This document shows, piece by piece, positions 14,584-22,115 of a stretch of 28,685 nt of DNA. The notes beneath the pieces are model-generated. The model was not told the origin of the DNA, ran no database searches, and saw only the letters and a program-made list of their open reading frames with translations. The stretch's first letter is position 1, and every line of letters begins with the position of its first letter. Source of the DNA: a virus. A program made the translations under genes and the position numbers. The stretch covers positions 1 through 28,685 of the IMG/VR virus record IMGVR_UViG_3300008117_000410. The stretch is one strand, 5' to 3'.

Positions 14584-16440
14584 CTATCCGTAAGTTTCTT
14601 GCCATTGCTCTGCAAAGGCTTCATCTAGATTGATTCCGTATCTTTTATCTTTTTGTGCTCTAGTTGCCCAACGATTGTTGGCAAACTTAGTAGCATATGA
14701 TGATTGCTGCATAAGTTCACGGACTTTAATGATAGCAAACCATAGTGCCATCACTGTATCTGTTGGGTTTTTAGTATCAGGTTTCCAAGTAATTAATTGC
14801 TGTACTAAGGACTTCAAGCCCTCAGAGCCTTCATTAGAAGGAAGTTCAATTAGATTATTATCTTGGAAACGAGAATCTCTTGTTGTCCCAAACAGTGAGG
14901 CCATAGATGCCACACCAAATCCTGTATCCCATTTGTTCTTACCTGTGAAGTGAGAGTTAAGGGTACAGCCGTGAGCCGCCAACCAGTTACGTAGATCATC
15001 ATCTAAGGCGTAAGCCTTCTGGTGGGCGTTAATTTCTATTCGGATCTCTTGGGGTTTGTATTTGATAACCCATTCTTCTATGAGATCTCTAATTCTTTGT
15101 GGGGTAGTATCTGTCATATTGACGCAGTCTAAGACATAAATCTTACCATCAGAGCGGTTGTAGGTAACTACTACTGCTCCTGTTGCTCCCGCCATAGCGG
15201 GGTCGAGGCCGATAACGGTATAAGAGCCATCAATATGTTTTGGATGGCCTGGGACTCCAGCCTTGAGTGGGCCTCTCTTTCGCATTCCGTTGACACATCC
15301 AGCGACAACAGTTGGCGAGAAGATCGAGTCTTCCATAACATCTTCTTGCTGGTAGACCAGCGCCCATACTGAGGGAGCGACTTCAGACCTTCTAGTAAAT
15401 AACGAGGGTCCATCCCACTTGGTGTATAATCCGTCTTTGTCTGGCTCATCTTGTTCCCCCTCAGGCCTATCAGTCTTGGGCCATAAGGTTTTCCAGTTGG
15501 TAGGCTTCTCATCAAATTCTAATACGGCTGGTTGACTAAAGTAAGTGAATGGAGATTTGCCACCAGTCCATTGGGCAGGATCTCTCATCATTTTATAAAG
15601 ATCAATAGGTGCGACACGGGTTCCTACAATAAGTAGTTTTCCGTGTCGACCCAAACGGGTGATGACTTCTTTTTGAAGCCATTCAATTTGCTTCTCCCAC
15701 TCGTGGGCATTTGCATTCATCACCACATCGTCAAGGATAATCAGATCAGCACGTGCTCCGTAGATCTGAGATCCAAATCCTAATGCTTGTACAGTTGGGT
15801 CTTTCTCGCCAGAGTCACGGCCTGAACCTAGGTAGATCATATCAGCAGACCAAGTGTTGGAGTCTGCCTTGTATCCACCCTGTGGGCCAAAGGCTACCTG
15901 CAACTTAGTCCAGTTAGGATGGCTAAGGCGGGTCTTGATGGCTGAAAGAAACTTTCGGGCCATACCCTGGGTTTTTGAAACAATAATGATTCTGACGTTA
16001 GGATCTACAGCAAGGCGGTAGGTAACGTAGTTGATTGTGATAACTGTTGACTTGGCGTGTTCAGGTGGTACGTTAATCAGGATACGATTAGTAGCAGCCT
16101 GCTCATAGGTCATAGATGGGTGTAACCACCTAGGCTCCTTGCCCTCTACCAGATCCACCCAGTCAAGGTGGTGGGGAAAGAGTGAGGTATCTAAGAACTC
16201 CTTAGAGAAATCCTCAAATGAAATATCTTTAAGTTCGGCTAGGTCGGTCTTTACACCCTTAGCCTCTAGCCTAGCCTTGTCAGCCTGTTCTTTAAAACTT
16301 GGCTCAGTAAGGGTCCATTGGCGGAAAGCGGCCTCAGATCGGCCAACCGACTCCATAGCCATCTTGATGGTCTGACCCTGTTTAAGTTGGGTGAGAACCC
16401 TGAACTGGGCCTCTTCCTTGGTAAGGTTCTGCTTTGCCAT
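14584..16440 (-). CDS. terL: Terminase large subunit with TerS-like N-terminal domain
   Basis: A 618-residue DNA-packaging motor. Residues 10-58 look like the helix-turn-helix of small terminases (QTIKMAMESVGRSEAAFRQW, then TEPSF). The ATPase follows: a Walker-A-like PPEHAKST (125-132), IIIVSKT (151-157), Walker B DLIILDD (232-238) and the coupling motif IVGTR (271-275). The C-terminal RNase-H-like nuclease has acidic residues D413 (VIGLDPAMAG), E469 (IRIEIN) and D561 (NPTDTVMALW). The Walker A is the deviant form (no GKS/T) seen in many phage TerL proteins. AGGGG lies seven bases before ATG 16440. No separate small terminase is visible in the window, so DNA recognition may reside in this fused domain. 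Confidence 0.93.
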   Translation of the reverse strand: MAKQNLTKEEAQFRVLTQLKQGQTIKMAMESVGRSEAAFRQWTLTEPSFKEQADKARLEAKGVKTDLAELKDISFEDFSKEFLDTSLFPHHLDWVDLVEGKEPRWLHPSMTYEQAATNRILINVPPEHAKSTVITINYVTYRLAVDPNVRIIIVSKTQGMARKFLSAIKTRLSHPNWTKLQVAFGPQGGYKADSNTWSADMIYLGSGRDSGEKDPTVQALGFGSQIYGARADLIILDDVVMNANAHEWEKQIEWLQKEVITRLGRHGKLLIVGTRVAPIDLYKMMRDPAQWTGGKSPFTYFSQPAVLEFDEKPTNWKTLWPKTDRPEGEQDEPDKDGLYTKWDGPSLFTRRSEVAPSVWALVYQQEDVMEDSIFSPTVVAGCVNGMRKRGPLKAGVPGHPKHIDGSYTVIGLDPAMAGATGAVVVTYNRSDGKIYVLDCVNMTDTTPQRIRDLIEEWVIKYKPQEIRIEINAHQKAYALDDDLRNWLAAHGCTLNSHFTGKNKWDTGFGVASMASLFGTTRDSRFQDNNLIELPSNEGSEGLKSLVQQLITWKPDTKNPTDTVMALWFAIIKVRELMQQSSYATKFANNRWATRAQKDKRYGINLDEAFAEQWQETYG

Positions 16441-16460
16441 TTAACGCCCCTAAGACTAAT

Positions 16461-16481
16461 CTAACGGTAGTTGCCTAACGG
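16461..16481. repeat. Tandem CTAACGG repeat in the terminase leader
   Basis: CTAACGG occurs at 16461-16467 and 16475-16481, fourteen bases apart, between the AT-rich promoter-like tract and the terminase start at 16440. In the leftward transcript it lies in the 5' leader. It could be a regulator or leader-RNA binding site, or chance. Confidence 0.35.
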
Positions 16482-16524
16482 CAGACCTATCCCATTATAT
16501 ATATTATATTATATAAATACTATA

Positions 16525-16557
16525 GGAGATTCCGTAGTCCAAAACGGAGGAATCTCC
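16525..16557. other. 9-bp inverted repeat, divergent region
   Basis: GGAGATTCC (16525-16533) and GGAATCTCC (16549-16557) are exact inverted repeats with a 15-base loop, about 85 bases upstream of the terminase start and flanked by AT-rich DNA. It could act as an operator, as a hairpin in the leftward leader, or as part of an origin. Leftward of it the AT-rich tract would place runs of A/U after the stem, so weak termination of leftward RNA is also possible. Confidence 0.45.
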
Positions 16558-16739
16558 GTATATGGAATATTATATATTACATATATAGATAACCTGTGAA
16601 TAACTGAAAAGCGAACAACTTAGGGTGATATTTCTTATAAATGTCCGTTTTGTATATATATTAACGGGCCTAACATATATTTTTAGGTAAGACATATATA
16701 TATTACCGCACGAAAATTAAAGAAGTCTGGGTCAAAGTT

Positions 16740-16755
16740 TTGTCGATTTGTCGAT
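16740..16755. repeat. Tandem TTGTCGAT repeat
   Basis: Two back-to-back copies of TTGTCGAT (16740-16747 and 16748-16755). A partial inverted copy, ATCGACA, lies at 16944-16950, on the other side of the SOS boxes. The arrangement is suggestive of a binding site for a phage repressor or initiator, but no protein can be assigned. Confidence 0.35.
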
Positions 16756-16804
16756 ATATCTACTTACCGATTTAGATATTTTCCTACCCTCTACCTCTAC
16801 TTGA

Positions 16805-16824
16805 TACCTGAGAACTACCTGAGA
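16805..16824. repeat. TACCTGAGA repeated one helical turn apart
   Basis: TACCTGAGA at 16805-16813 and 16816-16824. The copies start 11 bases apart, so a protein would meet both on the same DNA face. The pair lies just left of TATATT/TAAAAT hexamers and 23 bases left of the first SOS box. It may be an activator or repressor site. Confidence 0.4.
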
Positions 16825-16846
16825 GATATATTAAAATCCAAATATG

Positions 16847-16860
16847 CGAACACTTGTTCG
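16847..16860. promoter_or_regulatory. SOS box 1 (LexA-type operator)
   Basis: CGAACACTTGTTCG: six-base arms around a two-base centre, matching the Gram-positive/actinobacterial LexA box CGAAC-N4-GTTCG exactly. Compared with the mycobacterial-type TCGAAC-N4-GTTCGA it differs only at the first base (G for T). It lies 48 bases from an almost identical second box. Binding by host LexA, or by a phage repressor using the same site, is inferred. Confidence 0.75.
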
Positions 16861-16894
16861 AACTATCTCCCCGACCTATTCCGCCACCGGTATT

Positions 16895-16908
16895 CGAACA
16901 TTTGTTCG
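16895..16908. promoter_or_regulatory. SOS box 2 (LexA-type operator, perfect)
   Basis: CGAACATTTGTTCG, extended by T and A to the full TCGAAC-N4-GTTCGA consensus at 16894-16909. Seven-base arms are exact inverted repeats. Two such boxes 48 bases apart (between four and five helical turns) in a phage control region are very unlikely by chance and suggest DNA-damage-responsive control of at least one of the divergent transcripts. Confidence 0.8.
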
Positions 16909-17191
16909 ATTATCCCCTAAGCACACTTTCCTAAAATCTTCAAATCGACACACCGAGAACCCGAAAGTGTTCACCTATTGTTCACTTAGGGTGTGATGAG
17001 CCTCACAAAAAAACTTTCAAAAAACCCTTGTTTTGGCTTGTAATCGGTTTTGACCTATGGTTCAATTCTCCTATCGGTTGGACGAGTGGGAGTAAAATCC
17101 CCCGAACTTCGATCTCGATAAAGTTCGACTAGGCAACTAGTTAAGAACCTAGCAAAACGAGAGAGATTTGCCCGATCACCGAGAGTTCTTG

Positions 17192-17204
17192 AACCCTTCG
17201 GGTT
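17192..17204 (+). other. Leader hairpin 1 (AACCC/GGGTT), followed by T-rich DNA
   Basis: AACCC (17192-17196) and GGGTT (17200-17204) form a tight hairpin with a three-base loop, followed by the T-rich TCTTGTATCTCTGCTCTTT. It is short for a terminator but could cause pausing or weak termination in the leader of the rightward operon. Confidence 0.4.
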
Positions 17205-17222
17205 TCTTGTATCTCTGCTCTT

Positions 17223-17240
17223 TATTCGGTTGCCCGAATA
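17223..17240 (+). other. Leader hairpin 2 (TATTCGG/CCGAATA)
   Basis: TATTCGG at 17223-17229 and CCGAATA at 17234-17240 are exact 7-bp inverted repeats with a four-base loop, TTGC. It is one of at least five hairpins between 17190 and 17401, ahead of the first rightward gene. Confidence 0.5.
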
Positions 17241-17310
17241 TATCAGATAGAACCCTGAACCTAGTAAAGTTCGCTAAATCACTCGATAAATAAATTAACC
17301 CCCTGCGAGT

Positions 17311-17327
17311 TCGACCTTGTAAGTCGG
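17311..17327 (+). other. Leader hairpin 3, anticodon-arm-like
   Basis: TCGAC (17311-17315) pairs with GTCGG (17323-17327; one wobble) around a seven-base loop CTTGTAA. The stem-loop has the dimensions of a tRNA anticodon arm (loop U at position 33, UGU in the anticodon position), but the D arm and acceptor stem of a tRNA are missing, so no tRNA is called. Confidence 0.4.
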
Positions 17328-17330
17328 GCA

Positions 17331-17367
17331 AGTTGAGGGTTCGGGTAGGCGGGGTTCAACTCCCCGC
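17331..17367 (+). other. Leader hairpin 4 with two mutually exclusive pairings
   Basis: GCGGGG (17349-17354) pairs with CCCCGC (17362-17367) around the seven-base loop TTCAACT, which looks like a tRNA T-loop. The same loop bases TCAACT (17356-17361) are an exact complement of AGTTGA at 17331-17336, so an alternative longer stem can form. Such exclusive pairings occur in attenuators and riboswitches. Whether this one switches is unknown. Confidence 0.45.
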
Positions 17368-17376
17368 TTATCCGCT

Positions 17377-17401
17377 TATCGGGCAAGGTGTCCGATATTT
17401 T
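17377..17401 (+). terminator. Attenuator-like hairpin with TTTT just before the first gene
   Basis: TATCGG (17377-17382) and CCGATA (17392-17397) are exact inverted repeats followed by TTTT (17398-17401), only 11 bases before the start at 17413 and directly upstream of its AGGGAG ribosome-binding site. The stem is short (six pairs), so it may be a weak terminator or attenuator, or may simply shield the ribosome-binding site. Confidence 0.45.
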
Positions 17402-17412
17402 AGGGAGATAAG

Positions 17413-17703
17413 ATGAGTTCAATTATGACCGCACCCCGCAAGGTGCTAAAGAATAGAACTATGAACACTCGCCAAATACCATCACCAATCACCATCACTA
17501 AAAGTAATGGTGAAGTGATAGTTATTGACCCGACTAGCAAGGTCGTTAAACCTAAGCGTAAGGTTAAGGTTAAGCGTTCTAGTCGCAAGGTAATACCACT
17601 TACTCAGAGGGTATCTGAGCAAGATCAGCACGCAATAGCACTACAAGAACGGATTGATAAGTTCGTGAGAGAGAACCAAATCAAGGCTCTCCCTTACCTA
17701 TAA
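17413..17703 (+). CDS. First gene of the rightward operon, 96 aa, unknown
   Basis: From ATG 17413, with AGGGAG five bases upstream. It is a basic protein: an N-terminal segment with TRQIPSPITITKSNGEVIVI (a likely beta-hairpin), then a lysine/arginine-rich stretch (KVVKPKRKVKVKRSSRKVIP) and a C-terminal helix with QDQHAIALQERIDKFVREN. I do not recognise the family. Small and basic, and encoded behind a long structured leader and SOS boxes, it could be an early DNA- or RNA-binding regulator, which is inference from position only. The minus-strand frame over this gene has no ribosome-binding site and is taken as a shadow. Confidence 0.65.
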   Translation: MSSIMTAPRKVLKNRTMNTRQIPSPITITKSNGEVIVIDPTSKVVKPKRKVKVKRSSRKVIPLTQRVSEQDQHAIALQERIDKFVRENQIKALPYL

Positions 17704-17709
17704 TTACTG

Positions 17710-17768
17710 GACTATCTAGCAGGGTTATTCCTTCCCCCTGCTAGGTGGTCTAGCCATTAGAGGCTAGA
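17710..17768 (+). other. Two-hairpin intergenic RNA element, copy A
   Basis: Begins GACTATC. Stem 1 is CTAGCAGGG (17716-17724) with CCCTGCTAG (17736-17744), extendable by three pairs including wobbles; the loop is TTATTCCTTCC. Stem 2 is TCTAGCC (17749-17755) with GGCTAGA (17762-17768) and loop ATTAGA. A second copy with compensating base changes lies at 18034-18089, in the next intergenic gap. Both copies sit just after a stop codon and before the ribosome-binding site of the next small gene. Confidence 0.75.
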
Positions 17769-17787
17769 ACTAAAGAAGGGTGATAAT

Positions 17788-18027
17788 ATGTCTAAGGGTA
17801 AGAAGTTCAGACTAGACGCCTTCGACCCACAAGGTCGGTTAATCGCTAGTTGTTCTGACCACTACGCTTCGGCTCTACTAATGAGCCTTAACGGAGAGGG
17901 TTCAACTATCAGATATAAGAACGCTGTCTTATGGATAGAAGGTGCTGACGGAGAGGGTGCTGAGAGTTATGATGGCACTATCGCTAAAGTCTATGATAGA
18001 CTTGGCACTATGGTAAAATTAGTTTAA
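17788..18027 (+). CDS. 79-residue protein of unknown function
   Basis: From ATG 17788 with GAAGGG seven bases upstream. The product looks like a compact alpha/beta protein: FRLDAFDPQGRLIASCSDHY, a helix YASALLMSLNG, then GSTIRYKNAVLWIEGADGEG, and DGTIAKVYDRLGTMVKLV. I do not recognise the family, and it has no catalytic or metal-binding signature. It is flanked on both sides by copies of the two-hairpin element, suggesting its expression level is set separately from its neighbours. Confidence 0.65.
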   Translation: MSKGKKFRLDAFDPQGRLIASCSDHYASALLMSLNGEGSTIRYKNAVLWIEGADGEGAESYDGTIAKVYDRLGTMVKLV

Positions 18028-18033
18028 TGGTAT

Positions 18034-18089
18034 GACTATCAAGCAGGGCACTTCCCTTCCCTGCTTGGTAGCCTAATCATTAGATTAGG
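18034..18089 (+). other. Two-hairpin intergenic RNA element, copy B
   Basis: Begins GACTATC like copy A. Stem 1 is CAAGCAGGG (18040-18048) with CCCTGCTTG (18059-18067), extendable by three more pairs; the loop is CACTTCCCTT. Stem 2 is CCTAATC (18072-18078) with GATTAGG (18083-18089) and loop ATTA. Relative to copy A, stem 1 changes T-A to A-T and stem 2 changes several pairs on both strands while pairing is kept. This is evidence for selection on RNA (or cruciform) structure. Confidence 0.75.
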
Positions 18090-18102
18090 AGATGGAGATA
18101 AG

Positions 18103-18255
18103 ATGGAGATAATCCAAGAGTTTAGCGTGGATAGCGTTGCTACCTACCTAAGCACTTACTTCGGTGAGATATGGCTACCCCATAGAACGCTGATAATCCT
18201 AGCGATTATTGGTATCACCCTAAGAAGTATCAAGTTATTCAGAGAACGCAAGTAA
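18103..18255 (+). CDS. 50-residue single-pass membrane protein
   Basis: ATG 18103 follows GGAG-rich sequence (GGAGATGGAGATAAG) just after the two-hairpin element. The product has a polar N-terminal half (EIIQEFSVDSVATYLSTYFG), then RTLIILAIIGITLRSIKLF, a likely transmembrane or membrane-surface helix, and a basic tail (RERK) that would stay in the cytoplasm. It could be a holin-like, superinfection-exclusion or membrane-anchoring peptide. No family is recognised. Its stop is followed one base later by the next start. Confidence 0.55.
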   Translation: MEIIQEFSVDSVATYLSTYFGEIWLPHRTLIILAIIGITLRSIKLFRERK

Positions 18256-18256
18256 T

Positions 18257-18439
18257 ATGGATAACTTGGTAATGGTTGAACTAACTAGAGATGAACTAGA
18301 ACTTATTAGAACTTCTCTAAGAACGCAAGCAAACTGGTATGATAGGGGCGACTTCAAAGGTATGGCTTTATCTACCGACCAATTAAGGAATAAAGTTAGT
18401 GATATAATAATCGAAATATCAGGTAAGGTAAGGAGTTAA
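18257..18439 (+). CDS. 60-residue helical protein of unknown function
   Basis: ATG 18257 lies one base after the upstream TAA. The product reads MVELTRDELELIRTSLRTQA, followed by WYDRGDFKGMALSTDQLRNK and a C-terminal helix. Small two-helix proteins of the form LTxxELxLIxxSL are common in actinophages as I recall, without known function. ATG at residue 6 is an alternative start. AAGGAG for the next gene lies within its last codons, so the two are coupled. Confidence 0.6.
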   Translation: MDNLVMVELTRDELELIRTSLRTQANWYDRGDFKGMALSTDQLRNKVSDIIIEISGKVRS

Positions 18440-18440
18440 A

Positions 18441-18590
18441 ATGCCTGATGATAAGTGCTTAGAGTGTGGCAAGTCAATGATAAGCGAAGGCTTTATCGGA
18501 GATGATATATTATTATGCCACGCTTGTTATGATAATCTAACCCTAAAGAAGTGGGGTTATTTAATTCAGATTGGAAGTGATTATGTCTGA
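18441..18590 (+). CDS. 49-residue zinc-ribbon protein
   Basis: ATG 18441 follows AAGGAG at six bases. The product carries CLEC (6-9) and CHAC (26-29), a minimal two-knuckle zinc ribbon, then a basic helix (NLTLKKWGYLIQIG). It overlaps the start of the zinc-knuckle amidoligase by eight bases, so both are probably translated together. It might be a detached zinc module of the same system or a small transcription-factor-like protein. No specific family is recognised. Confidence 0.65.
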   Translation: MPDDKCLECGKSMISEGFIGDDILLCHACYDNLTLKKWGYLIQIGSDYV

Positions 18591-19776
18591 TGAGATAGAA
18601 CCAGTTGAGTGTAGTAGTTGTTCGGGGAACTTCCTTCCTGACGATATGGCTACCACTAGAGGCGGTGATACACTATGCGAGGATTGCCGTATCTATTGTG
18701 AGCATTGTAATAACTTTGATTATTCCGAGAGTTCTCGATATGTTCAGGGTTATGGTGTCTATTGCGAAGTATGTGCCGATAACTATACCTTCTGGTGTGA
18801 GAGTTGCGAGGATACTTACTCAGACCAACACTCTAGTTATGAGATAGCAGATATTGGTGTGTATTGGTGCGAGGATTGTTGCTCTAATAATGCCAACTGG
18901 TGTGAGAATTGCGATATGTATAACCGAGATAGTTGCGAGAACTGTGAGGGTGGTAGGTTAATTAACCAATACTCTTACAAGCCTGACCCTATATTCTATG
19001 GTGAGGATAAGAATAAACTACACTTCGGTATAGAACTAGAGATGGAGATTAGAGATAATAACCTACACGATAGTGCCGAATATGTTAGCGAGATGTTAGG
19101 CGGGTTCGTGTATCTTAAAGAGGATAGTAGTATAAGTAGTGGCGGGTATAAGGGGTTCGAGATGGTATCTCACCCTGCTACTCTCGACTTCTTTACTAAC
19201 CATAAGAACTTATGGACTACGCTAGATTATCTACGCAGAGTTCATACTGCTAGGAGTTGGGACGCCAAGAGTTGCGGACTACATATCCATATAAGCAGGG
19301 CAGGGTTCAAGGGTGGTGCTCACACCCATAGGTTCTTATCACTTATCTATAAGAACTCTGATAAGATGATGAAGTTAGGTGGGCGCAAGTCTAACTATGC
19401 TAAGTTCAATGATGTGTGGCAGTATGATGAGTTCGATAGACCATACTTCACACTAGCACACAAGGTTGCTCACCCTAGTAGTGCTATGACCGAGAGATAT
19501 TCTGCGGTAAATACGCAGAACCAATACACCTTAGAACTTAGGTTCTTTAGGGGAACTATGAACCCCGAAGGTGTGCTTAGTGCTATACAATTAGCACACG
19601 CAACAGTAGAATACACACGCAACCTAACCCTATCAGATGTAAAGATGGGTGCGTTAAGTTGGGCGTGGTTCTCTGATTGGATACAAGCCAACAATGGTTT
19701 ATATCCTGAACTCTATATGCGTATGAGTAGAGTGGATAAGTTAGTAATCGATAGTAATGAGTTAGTCAATGCGTAA
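18583..19776 (+). CDS. Zinc-knuckle / amidoligase fusion (amidoligase_2-like)
   Basis: A 397-residue protein. ATG 18583 is preferred to a start four codons earlier because the shorter form gives the natural MSDEIEP start. Residues 10-121 hold eight CxxC knuckles (C10/13, 32/35, 39/42, 61/64, 72/75, 96/99, 107/110, 118/121), enough for about four zinc sites. The C-terminal two-thirds shows the signatures of the glutamate-cysteine-ligase-like amidoligase family: FGIELEME (148-155), KEDSS (179-183), GFEMVSHP (191-198), CGLHIHIS (231-238) and YTLELRFFRGT (315-325). The Glu and His residues of these motifs are those expected to hold Mg-ATP and substrate. Such enzymes join a carboxylate to an amine using ATP. 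The substrate is unknown. The adjacent glutamine amidotransferase probably supplies ammonia. Confidence 0.88.
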   Translation: MSDEIEPVECSSCSGNFLPDDMATTRGGDTLCEDCRIYCEHCNNFDYSESSRYVQGYGVYCEVCADNYTFWCESCEDTYSDQHSSYEIADIGVYWCEDCCSNNANWCENCDMYNRDSCENCEGGRLINQYSYKPDPIFYGEDKNKLHFGIELEMEIRDNNLHDSAEYVSEMLGGFVYLKEDSSISSGGYKGFEMVSHPATLDFFTNHKNLWTTLDYLRRVHTARSWDAKSCGLHIHISRAGFKGGAHTHRFLSLIYKNSDKMMKLGGRKSNYAKFNDVWQYDEFDRPYFTLAHKVAHPSSAMTERYSAVNTQNQYTLELRFFRGTMNPEGVLSAIQLAHATVEYTRNLTLSDVKMGALSWAWFSDWIQANNGLYPELYMRMSRVDKLVIDSNELVNA

Positions 19777-19787
19777 GGGGGTAAAGT

Positions 19788-20657
19788 ATGTGTCTACTAG
19801 TGGTGTGTAATCCTAATTCCACACCAAATAAAGATGACCTAAAGATGGGTGCGTGTAAGAACCCACACGGCTTTGGGTTTGCGATAGATACTGGTGATGG
19901 TATTATATCTGAACGCAGTATGTCTGCTAAGAAGTCTATCGCTAGGTTCTTAGAATTGCGTGAGCAGTATCCTAATGGCTATGCTATGTGGCACGCTAGG
20001 TATGCTACTCACGGAGTTAAGAACGAACTAAACTGCCACCCATTTAAGGTAAAGGGTGAGGAGTATGATACTTATCTAGCGCACAATGGCGTGCTAGATA
20101 TTCATATACCTAAAGGTGATAAGCGTAGCGACACTAGAATTATGGCAGAGGAATTACTGCCACAGTTAGGCGGTGTGTCTGCGCTAGATAACGATTATGT
20201 ATATGATATGATAAGTGCGTGGTCTAGAGGTAGCAAGATTGCGGTTATGACTAATGACCCTAGCGCACAATACAAGATTTATATTATCAATGAGAACGCT
20301 GGTAGTTGGGACGATAATGGTATATGGTGGAGTAATACTTCATACAAGCCTGTAGTATCCACGCCACGCACCGAGAGTTATACTTATACCTATGGTGATG
20401 AGCCTAGTGTGTATGATATAGTAGTAGGACAAGAGAGTAATGGGTTCGAGGATAATACCTTCGAGTGTCCTAATTGTAATGCGCTAGTAGATTTATATGA
20501 GAGCGAACTCTATTGTGTGATGTGTGAGTGTTGCTTTGATTGTAGCGCACAGTTCTTAGATTGCCTATGCTATAACCCTAGCACCAAGAGTATGATAAGA
20601 GATGAGTATGGATTTATTGATAACAGGTGGTACAGTAAAGAACCACTTGACTTCTAG
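19788..20657 (+). CDS. Class-II glutamine amidotransferase with C-terminal zinc ribbon
   Basis: A 289-residue protein starting Met-Cys; AAGGGGG lies seven bases upstream. After Met removal Cys2 would be the N-terminal nucleophile. The order of motifs matches GlmS/PurF-type glutaminase domains: NPHGFGFA (25-32), MWHARYATHG (67-76, compare HTRWATHG in GlmS), CHPF (83-86), LAHNGVL (97-103, Asn-Gly of the oxyanion hole) and SDTRIMAEEL (114-123). It hydrolyses glutamine to glutamate and ammonia. No synthase domain follows. Instead residues 227-261 carry CPNC, CVMC/CECC and CFDC knuckles, like its neighbour. It starts 11 bases after the amidoligase stop, so the two proteins probably form an ammonia-dependent amide-forming system. 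Confidence 0.88.
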   Translation: MCLLVVCNPNSTPNKDDLKMGACKNPHGFGFAIDTGDGIISERSMSAKKSIARFLELREQYPNGYAMWHARYATHGVKNELNCHPFKVKGEEYDTYLAHNGVLDIHIPKGDKRSDTRIMAEELLPQLGGVSALDNDYVYDMISAWSRGSKIAVMTNDPSAQYKIYIINENAGSWDDNGIWWSNTSYKPVVSTPRTESYTYTYGDEPSVYDIVVGQESNGFEDNTFECPNCNALVDLYESELYCVMCECCFDCSAQFLDCLCYNPSTKSMIRDEYGFIDNRWYSKEPLDF

Positions 20658-20675
20658 AATTGGTAGTGATATAAT
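20647..20675 (+). promoter_or_regulatory. Near-consensus sigma70/sigmaA-type promoter
   Basis: TTGACT (-35, 20647-20652), a 17-base spacer, then TATAAT (-10, 20670-20675). It lies across the end of the amidotransferase gene and would start RNA near 20682, ahead of the 69-residue gene and the WhiB gene. This is the clearest host-type promoter in the window. Its -10 is in the centre of a perfect palindrome, suggesting repression. Confidence 0.75.
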
Positions 20676-20716
20676 CACTATCGATACCAACAGATACCAC
20701 TTGGTAAATTGCCAAG
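20660..20716 (+). promoter_or_regulatory. Operator-like palindromes over and after the promoter
   Basis: TAGTGAT-ATA-ATCACTA (20664-20680) is a perfect 7-bp palindrome centred on the -10. TTGGTA (20660-20665) and TACCAA (20685-20690) flank it, and TACCA-CT-TGGTA (20695-20706) follows, giving four TGGTA/TACCA half sites and a direct GATACCA repeat (20683, 20693). CTTGGT/GCCAAG (20700-20705, 20711-20716) forms a further hairpin before the ribosome-binding site. This is a dense regulatory site. The WhiB protein, another phage regulator or an RNA switch may act here. Confidence 0.6.
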
Positions 20717-20740
20717 CGGATAACAATGAAAGGTAATACA

Positions 20741-20950
20741 ATGACAACCACGACAGCACGAGTATATGAGGACTACTTGGCTAGCATATCAATGACACTC
20801 GCTGACTTACCAACACAGTCTAGGTTCAAGCCTAAGTCTATGTGGGTATCTCTAGGCAACGGCAAGTATCAACACTTGACTGGTGAGAAAGGCTTAATCG
20901 CCAAGCACTCACGCTTAGAAGGTTATACTACTGTAGTATTCCGCCCATAA
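20741..20950 (+). CDS. 69-residue protein under the strong promoter, unknown
   Basis: ATG 20741 is chosen because AAAGG lies seven bases upstream; an in-frame ATG at 20726 overlaps that ribosome-binding site and is unlikely. The product begins TTTTARVYEDYLASISMTLA, then SRFKPKSMWVSLGNGKYQHL, and ends in EGYTTVVFRP. It is a small mixed alpha/beta protein without cysteines. I do not recognise the family. Being the first gene after a consensus promoter, it is probably made in quantity early in infection, as host-takeover factors often are, which is inference. Confidence 0.65.
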   Translation: MTTTTARVYEDYLASISMTLADLPTQSRFKPKSMWVSLGNGKYQHLTGEKGLIAKHSRLEGYTTVVFRP

Positions 20951-20967
20951 TAAACTAGTTAATTGTG

Positions 20968-20987
20968 GGTGGGGTAATCGCCCCACC
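20968..20987 (+). other. GC-rich hairpin between the 69-aa gene and whiB
   Basis: GGTGGGG (20968-20974) and CCCCACC (20981-20987) are exact inverted repeats with loop TAATCG. No T-run follows (TACACC), so it is not a typical terminator. It may stabilise the upstream message or reduce readthrough into the WhiB gene. Confidence 0.5.
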
Positions 20988-21015
20988 TACACCAACATAG
21001 AGAGGAGGCTAGTAA

Positions 21016-21408
21016 ATGGCTAAGAGTTCTATTGATTTATATTTTTCCAATGATAAAGATTTAGATATAAGTAATGGTCTATGTGTTAAGCACGACGACC
21101 CTGACTTATGGTTTGCTGGTGAGGTAGACTTAACCGACCCAAACAGTAGCGTTAATACTAATTCACAAGCAACCAAACTAGAAGTAGAGAAGGCTATCAA
21201 AGCACTATCTATATGTGATAACTGTCCTGCTAAAGATAACTGCCTAGAGTTAGGCAAGCGTGGCGAACAGATATACTTCGGTATATATGGCGGCACTATG
21301 GCAGGTGAGAGATTACTTATGGTAGGTAGGTCTATGAAAAACTCTACCAATAAAAACAAGTTAGCGTTTGCTCGTAAGGTTAGACGCCTTATGGGAGAGA
21401 GGATATAA
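21016..21408 (+). CDS. whiB: WhiB-family transcriptional regulator (Wbl)
   Basis: A 130-residue protein with a strong AGGAGG eight bases before ATG 21016. It has the four cysteines that bind the 4Fe-4S cluster in WhiB proteins: C23, then C67-x2-C70-x5-C76 (CDNCPAKDNC). GIYGGTMAGERL (89-100) matches the conserved G(I/V)WGG turn, and a basic C-terminus follows (KNKLAFARKVRRLM). WhiB proteins bind the primary sigma factor and redirect or repress transcription in Actinobacteria. Phage WhiB copies (such as the one of mycobacteriophage TM4) can interfere with host WhiB function. This is also the main evidence for the host phylum. Confidence 0.92.
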   Translation: MAKSSIDLYFSNDKDLDISNGLCVKHDDPDLWFAGEVDLTDPNSSVNTNSQATKLEVEKAIKALSICDNCPAKDNCLELGKRGEQIYFGIYGGTMAGERLLMVGRSMKNSTNKNKLAFARKVRRLMGERI

Positions 21409-21621: not shown

Positions 21622-21717
21622 TTGGTAGTTGGTTTGCTATTCATAATGGGTGGCGCAACCATACCATATACCCTTATATTTCTTTTAGTTCTATACTTTA
21701 TAGGTGCTTTATTATGA
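21622..21717 (+). CDS. 31-residue hydrophobic membrane peptide (TTG start), holin candidate
   Basis: An open frame with TTG at 21622, AGGA five bases upstream, and its TGA overlapping the next gene's ATG (ATGA), which supports translation. The peptide is almost all hydrophobic: VVGLLFIMGGATIPYTLIFL followed by LVLYFIGALL, which is one or two membrane segments. No other start codon fits well, so the start is uncertain. Its position directly before a lysozyme-like gene suggests a pinholin/holin-like or other lysis-timing role. It is too short to confirm. Confidence 0.45.
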   Translation: MVVGLLFIMGGATIPYTLIFLLVLYFIGALL

Positions 21718-22115
21718 GACGAGAAATTATGTTATTACTTACTGCAAGTTTATTAGTGATAGTAAGTATCAGATTTGCTACACCTGTGTCCAACCCAACG
21801 ATAAGCGAAGAGCCTGAGATTGAATGGACAATAAAGGATAGCAAAGCATATGCACAAGATAAACTTTACGAGTGGCAACATAAACAATGGACGTGCCTTA
21901 ATAAATTGTGGACTAAAGAAAGCAATTGGAGACCCAACGCATACAATAAAATAAAGGTTATGGGTAAAAATGCTGGAGGTATTCCACAGATATTAGGGCT
22001 TGACCCTAAGACTCCTGCGCCAATACAAATTGACAGAGGGTTGTCTTATATCTACAATAGGTATCAGACCCCTTGCTTGGCGTGGGAGTTCTTTACTAAG
22101 AAGGGATACTACTAA
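21714..22115 (+). CDS. Secreted or membrane-anchored lysozyme-like protein (SLT-type)
   Basis: A 133-residue protein from ATG 21714. Residues 6-20 (MLLLTASLLVIVSIR) form a signal peptide, membrane anchor or SAR-type helix. The rest matches the small transglycosylase-like domain common in Actinobacteria and their phages: KAYAQDKLYEWQHKQWTCLN, LWTKESNWRPNAYN with the presumed catalytic Glu69, AGGIPQILG (88-95) in place of the usual GIPQ, and a C-terminal QIDRGLSYIYNRYQTPCLAW. Cys61 and Cys121 could form a disulphide outside the cell. It would cut peptidoglycan glycan strands. Its place outside the virion block and next to a tiny membrane peptide suggests a lysis cassette. An entry-associated or superinfection role is also possible. 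Confidence 0.75.
   Translation: MRREIMLLLTASLLVIVSIRFATPVSNPTISEEPEIEWTIKDSKAYAQDKLYEWQHKQWTCLNKLWTKESNWRPNAYNKIKVMGKNAGGIPQILGLDPKTPAPIQIDRGLSYIYNRYQTPCLAWEFFTKKGYY

Follow-up and report, generated by a model that had tools for sequence, protein, structure and literature searches.

A zinc-fused amidoligase and a class-II glutamine amidotransferase as a probable glutamine-dependent amide synthetase of phages

A 28,685-base IMG/VR virus record, referred to here as the window, carries a gene for a cysteine-rich amidoligase followed immediately by a gene for a stand-alone class-II glutamine amidotransferase (GATase), which raises the question of whether the two proteins act together and on what molecule. 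An earlier sequence-only reading had proposed an amide-forming pair with its target left open, and this proposal is well supported by profile matches, conserved residues, and co-occurrence of the two genes. The features of the locus are given in Table 1.

Table 1. Features of the amidoligase/GATase locus (positions in the window)
Feature	Position	Strand	Extent or location	Basis
49-aa zinc-ribbon ORF	18441-18590	+	overlaps amidoligase start by 8 bases	sequence
Amidoligase	18583-19776	+	397 aa, start ATG 18583	Amidoligase_2, PHROG, dN/dS
Two tandem LIM-like zinc units	18610-18945	+	residues 10-121	conserved Cys, LIM profile and Foldseek matches
Glutamine-synthetase-fold ligase domain	19006-19773	+	residues 142-397	AlphaFold2 model, VIA-align
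Ribosome-binding-site-like AAGGGGG	19775-19781	+	overlaps amidoligase stop, 6 bases upstream of GATase ATG	sequence
Stand-alone class-II GATase	19788-20657	+	289 aa	GATase_4, PHROG 25883, conserved residues, model
C-terminal Cys-rich tail of GATase	20466-20570	+	residues 227-261	conserved Cys
WhiB-like gene	21016-21408	+	same rightward cluster	PF02467, 28.8 bits (cut-off 23.6)
Transglycosylase-like gene	21714-22115	+	same rightward cluster	PHROG 12661 'transglycosylase', E 4.5e-18

The reading frames, the 11 bases between the amidoligase stop codon (19774-19776) and the GATase start codon (ATG 19788), and the overlap with the upstream 49-aa ORF were all as the earlier reading had described them. 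The tabulated amidoligase start is likely to be the correct one; the mechanical ORF list had instead begun at TTG 18571. The gap between the two genes measures 8 to 15 bases at nearly all related loci, 11 being the commonest value. The WhiB-like gene downstream, present in 34 of 35 compared loci, suggests that the phage infects actinobacteria. At positions 20647-20675, where the GATase gene ends and before the next gene, lies a strong match to an extended sigma-70-like promoter (TTGACT-17-TATAAT, with TG before the second hexamer), although the number of such matches in the region is near the chance level. Searches for an RNA element or a tRNA found none.

The 49-aa zinc ribbon that the earlier reading had set beside the pair is real and overlaps the amidoligase start, but it does not belong to the conserved unit. 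Of 35 near relatives, only 6 have a recognizable counterpart adjoining the pair, although a few of the other 29 contigs start too close to the pair to reveal one, and we therefore ruled out this ORF as a third component; its match to the LIM-like profile was weak (E 0.012, under the cut-off). No PADLOC model fits the amidoligase, the GATase, or the 49-aa ORF, and a known defense system was ruled out on this ground as the identity of the pair.

Ligase and glutaminase subunits and their zinc parts

The 397-aa amidoligase matched Amidoligase_2 (PF12224) at 29.3 bits (E 1e-6), above the curated cut-off of 22 and also recovered in a search of the virus record itself, as well as the unnamed family PHROG 22302 (E 2.7e-33) and PHROG 2443, 'amidoligase enzyme' (E 1.2e-7). 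An AlphaFold2 model of the protein had a mean pLDDT of 87.5, and its residues 142-397 aligned by VIA-align with YbdK (Z 13.2, rmsd 4.0 over 226 residues) and with glutamine synthetases, the best of which was Gln1 (Z 12.3, rmsd 3.3 over 186 residues); gamma-glutamylmethylamide synthetase and Dop/PafA were also among the Foldseek matches of the model. The domain contains the motifs GIELEME (E151, E153), FE (E193), CGLHIHIS (H234, H236), ERYSAVN (R305, N310), and TLELR (E318, R320). Residues E151, E153, D181, E193, H234, H236, R239, R305, N310, N313, E318, and R320 are invariant in an alignment of 26 phage rows (A1), and all 12 stay invariant or conserved in at least 90% of rows once bacterial sequences are added (alignment A4). 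We take these residues to be the acidic, HxH, and RxExR-type sites of glutamine synthetase, an assignment made by motif rather than by coordinate superposition. As modeled, the ligase subunit carries a glutamine-synthetase-like catalytic fold with an intact active site. The gene evolves under purifying selection, with dN/dS of 0.17-0.24 against near relatives and 0.14-0.24 across both genes of the pair. In the phage lineage the ligase nearly always ends in Asn-Ala or Glu-Ala, although the tail that precedes these two residues varies.

The downstream protein matched GATase_4 at 25.8 bits, above the cut-off of 23, and fell slightly under the cut-off of 27 for GATase_6 (26.7 bits). It also matched the unnamed family PHROG 25883 (E 1.9e-38), while NCBIfam matches to GlmS and PurF were weak and far under the cut-off. 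Residues C2, N25, H69, R71, T74, H84, N100, G101, and D115 are invariant or nearly so in the alignments, and H75 and G76 occur in at least 90% of rows. The conserved set includes C2, the N-terminal nucleophile after Met1, the glutamine-binding residues R71, T74, and D115, and the oxyanion pair N100-G101. The motif set is complete, as the earlier reading had stated. The modeled core (pLDDT mostly 89-98) resembles GlmS (Z 14.0) and EgtC (Z 13.3). After a low-confidence linker follows a tail in which C227, C230, C243, C246, C259, and C261 are found in at least 90% of rows and which probably binds zinc; model pLDDT is 70-79 at residues 221-260. Profile matches above cut-off, named beforehand as a test of the sequence-only reading, were thus obtained for both families, and both proteins retained their catalytic residues on alignment.

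The N-terminal part of the amidoligase contains eight CxxC motifs and no more (CSSC, CEDC, CEHC, CEVC, CESC, CEDC, CENC, and CENC), the exact number that had been counted before. Their spacing is that expected of four zinc sites arranged as two tandem double units. Unit 1 uses cysteines 10, 13, 32, and 35 and then 39, 42, 61, and 64 (C-X2-C-X18-C-X2-C-X3-C-X2-C-X18-C-X2-C), and unit 2 uses cysteines 72, 75, 96, and 99 and then 107, 110, 118, and 121 (C-X2-C-X20-C-X2-C-X7-C-X2-C-X7-C-X2-C). These cysteines are present in at least 90% of alignment rows, and most of them also in the phage and bacterial alignment A4. Compared with the LIM pattern C-X2-C-X16-23-(H/C)-X2-C-X2-C-X2-C-X16-21-C-X2-C/D, unit 1 has Cys in place of His and a linker of 3 and otherwise fits. 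A profile built from 51 relatives matched PINCH LIM1 first among solved structures (E 3.9e-4), together with other LIM domains, although Cys-rich sequences may give inflated profile matches to one another. LIM proteins also appeared, weakly, among the Foldseek matches of the ligase model (E 0.1-0.17), and Pfam LIM was not among the profile matches of the single amidoligase protein. The double-unit spacing and the LIM matches by profile and Foldseek make 'LIM-like' preferable to the term 'knuckle' used in the earlier reading. LIM domains mostly bind proteins. The catalytic cores evolve more slowly than the zinc part and the glutaminase tail; among near relatives, identity is 0.61-0.73 for the zinc part versus 0.88-0.90 for the ligase domain.

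Pairing of the two genes in phages and bacteria

Loci fetched by the ligase alone had the glutaminase just downstream in 35/35 cases, and among the matches listed, loci fetched by the glutaminase alone had the ligase in 79/80, with a contig end accounting for the other one; some contigs are common to both sets. To keep selection independent of the pair, relatives were also fetched by their terminase, from the matches listed. Among the 28 with a right-side flank, 20 had both genes, 7 had neither, none had a single gene, and one (L404) was too short; the 7 without the pair reach past the slot into the WhiB or transglycosylase region. Treating the relatives as independent gives a probability of about 1 in 888,000 that no single-gene case occurs, a figure that their kinship makes indicative only (L384 and L385 are near-identical). 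The both-or-neither pattern marks the pair as accessory, and in phages the ligase and GATase are inherited as an obligate accessory unit. The co-occurrence that the sequence-only reading had set as a test was observed in related phages, and it was seen in bacterial loci as well.

The interval between the terminase and WhiB genes (window positions 16440-21016) is a variable slot. Relatives L348, L361, L384, L385, L396, L398, and L402, with ~80% identical terminase, hold other small genes there, among them short zinc proteins (MTKDICQFCGWEI...) that resemble the 49-aa ORF. In L037, L050, and L066 the zinc part and the glutaminase are window-like but the ligase domain is only 55-58% identical, which likely reflects recombination inside the ligase gene. 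A divergent ligase (~58% identical) beside a near-identical GATase in some sub-lineages indicates that the subunits are not strictly co-adapted. The co-divergence of ligase and GATase (r 0.86) is unusable as evidence of interaction, since shared phylogeny gives the same value. A 3.3-kb contig with an 88% identical ligase that is binned as a Rhodobacteraceae MAG (L120) is probably a wrongly binned phage contig.

A scan of bacterial contigs yielded 80 relatives (a count that includes the phage-like L120), mainly from Oscillospirales, Ruminococcus, and Coriobacteriia. A class-II GATase lies directly downstream of the zinc amidoligase in 76 of the 80; two loci are cut by contig ends and two (L165 and L180) have none. 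The bacterial ligases (L121-L199) share with the window the zinc units and the amidoligase domain at 26-33% identity, whereas many of their partners belong to another class-II subtype, GlmS/PurF-like, with GATase_6/7 matches above cut-off. This difference in subtype points to a need for a glutaminase as such.

The bacterial flanks include DUF960 in 28/79 loci and a recombinase-like family in 34/79, an example of which reads as a serine recombinase. The recurrent order is DUF960, zinc amidoligase, and class-II GATase, often with the recombinase-like gene and sometimes with DUF3846. Three Ruminococcus-type loci (L123, L151, and L155) have two tandem zinc amidoligases followed by one GATase. A Collinsella pair (L121:452-5164) adjoins AbiD and a GajA/GajB (Gabija) set, and a R. 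flavefaciens pair (L176) adjoins a type II methyltransferase and a helicase; these defense-gene neighbors show shared neighborhoods only. The ligase-GATase fusion of Atopobiaceae L124 was discounted as functional proof, because the near-identical L121 has two overlapping frames and the fusion looks like an indel.

Relation to described phage pairs

The same gene order is found in phages Marvin, MEP401, ctgrD200, LUZ24, and phiEco32 and in the Mycobacteroides plasmid pGD21-2. In Marvin (gp105-gp106) and its cluster (19 records), an amidoligase is followed by a class-II GATase with a C-terminal Cys-rich tail like that of the window. The Marvin proteins are ~33% (ligase) and ~34% (GATase) identical to those of the window over 72% and 91% of the query, respectively. 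The Marvin ligase differs in its shorter N-terminal zinc part (the match begins at residue 107 of the window protein) and its long C-terminal extension, and 79 bases separate the Marvin genes versus 11 in the window; the two LIM-like pairs are a feature of the window. The OM43 (Methylophilales) phages MEP401/402 and Podoviridae ctgrD200 have the same two genes in the same order at 23-30% identity. These pairs are very divergent from that of the window, and the MEP401 ligase has another, longer N-terminal extension. The cassette of phiEco32, LUZ24-like, and RIO-1-like phages likewise combines an adjacent amidoligase and class-II GATase, the latter with a Cys-rich C-terminus as in the window, but the phiEco32/LUZ24 ligase has no zinc units and is missed by the window-family profile. 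That set adds an ATP-grasp protein, a second COOH-NH2 ligase, and a gamma-glutamyl cyclotransferase, none of which was seen among the neighbors scanned in the 28.7-kb record, possibly a fragment.

Such pairs have been annotated and discussed before. The genes of the OM43 phages were annotated as PF12224 and PF13522 GATase (PMC10580990), and the same paper cites earlier proposals of cell-wall modification for phiEco32 and of metabolite synthesis for Marvin. A seven-gene cassette of RIO1-like phages was described as peptidoglycan modification (PMC5498523), and amidoligase/GATase genes were listed in a LUZ24-like phage (PMC3890496). The novelty of the locus is thus lower than the sequence-only reading had assumed. 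Phage amidoligase/GATase pairs have long been predicted, and our search of largely open-access literature found no measured substrate for them, no biochemistry for this subfamily, and no description of the LIM-like version. The window pair is well supported as a zinc-fused, widely spread addition to the already predicted pairs, and its interest rests less on newness than on its being compact, widespread, and testable. The subfamily comprises two genes in 2.1 kb and has a putative docking module, natural relatives from which the pair is missing as a whole, and a cultured cousin in phage Marvin, which together make the amidation target directly testable.

Proposed reaction, alternative readings, and targets

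We consider it probable that the amidoligase and the GATase are the two subunits of a glutamine-dependent amide synthetase, an accessory system that alters a host molecule during infection. The glutaminase would release ammonia from glutamine at Cys2, and, judging from the protein families, the ammonia would be transferred to the ligase, where a carboxylate would be activated at the expense of ATP, probably by conversion to an acyl phosphate; reaction of the activated carboxylate with ammonia would give a carboxamide. Docking, whether between the subunits or with the molecule that bears the substrate, may be the role of the LIM-like units and of the glutaminase's Cys-rich tail. The folds, the intact active sites, the purifying selection, the obligate pairing, and the accessory status are computed results, and it is the profile and fold matches, the conserved residues, the dN/dS values, and the pairing in both phages and bacteria that argue for the amide-synthetase reading. 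Counting against it, EgtC, which is a hydrolase and does not donate ammonia, fits the glutaminase fold almost as well as GlmS does; the lack of strict co-adaptation between the subunits and the contribution of synteny to the pairing are further points on that side.

The EgtC match would suit a different scheme, in which an amine receives a gamma-glutamyl group or another amino acid through the ligase and an amide is cleaved afterwards by the Ntn-hydrolase partner, as in EgtA/EgtC or PuuA/PuuD. In its favor, the ligase model has YbdK and plant glutamate-cysteine ligase among its best structural matches, and gamma-glutamyl cyclotransferases accompany the related phiEco32/LUZ24 sets. We nevertheless regard this scheme as unlikely, given that the bacterial cousins use GlmS/PurF-like GATases, which suggests the need for a glutaminase, and that neither a cyclotransferase nor another pathway gene was seen adjoining the pair in the window. 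The presence of Dop and PafA among the significant Foldseek matches and the general tendency of LIM-like domains to bind proteins would fit a protein modifier that couples an amino acid or peptide to a LIM-recruited protein, or deamidates it, with the glutaminase as an auxiliary. However, identity to Dop/PafA is ~10%, glutamine-synthetase-fold enzymes of every kind match the model, and the glutaminase is almost never absent, so we give this alternative a low probability. Synteny among related phages does account for part of the pairing, and ancestry alone would give the observed co-divergence within a lineage of common gene order. That the two genes are neighbors by descent only and serve unrelated pathways is nonetheless very improbable, since they are present or absent jointly, as a unit, and the same pairing recurs in unrelated phages, a plasmid, and bacteria with different flanks.

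With regard to the target of the presumed amide synthetase, the candidates remain tentative. The LIM-like units lean toward a protein, which is a possible but doubtful substrate, and a small metabolite has a similarly low standing. A nucleic acid, one of the docking targets suggested in the earlier reading, may be a further candidate, although units of this type usually bind proteins. A more speculative and rather improbable picture is that of a mobile two-gene system, common to phages and to the mobile elements that unrelated bacteria carry; its LIM-like units would aim the glutamine-dependent amidoligase at particular host proteins and the phage would amidate their carboxylates, turning a defense off or taking a process over. 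A cell-envelope peptide is a somewhat better, though still uncertain, candidate. The amidation of peptidoglycan glutamate by MurT-GatD of Staphylococcus aureus (PMC3267633) resembles the reaction proposed here in being a two-gene, glutamine-dependent amidation of a carboxylate. It serves as an analogy only: unlike the proteins of the window, MurT is related to Mur ligases and GatD is a GATase of the class-I type. The transglycosylase-like gene, which is present in 35/35 compared phage loci and immediately precedes the pair in the rearranged locus L115, leans weakly toward the cell wall, although this hint is weakened by the occurrence of the same gene in relatives that do not carry the pair.
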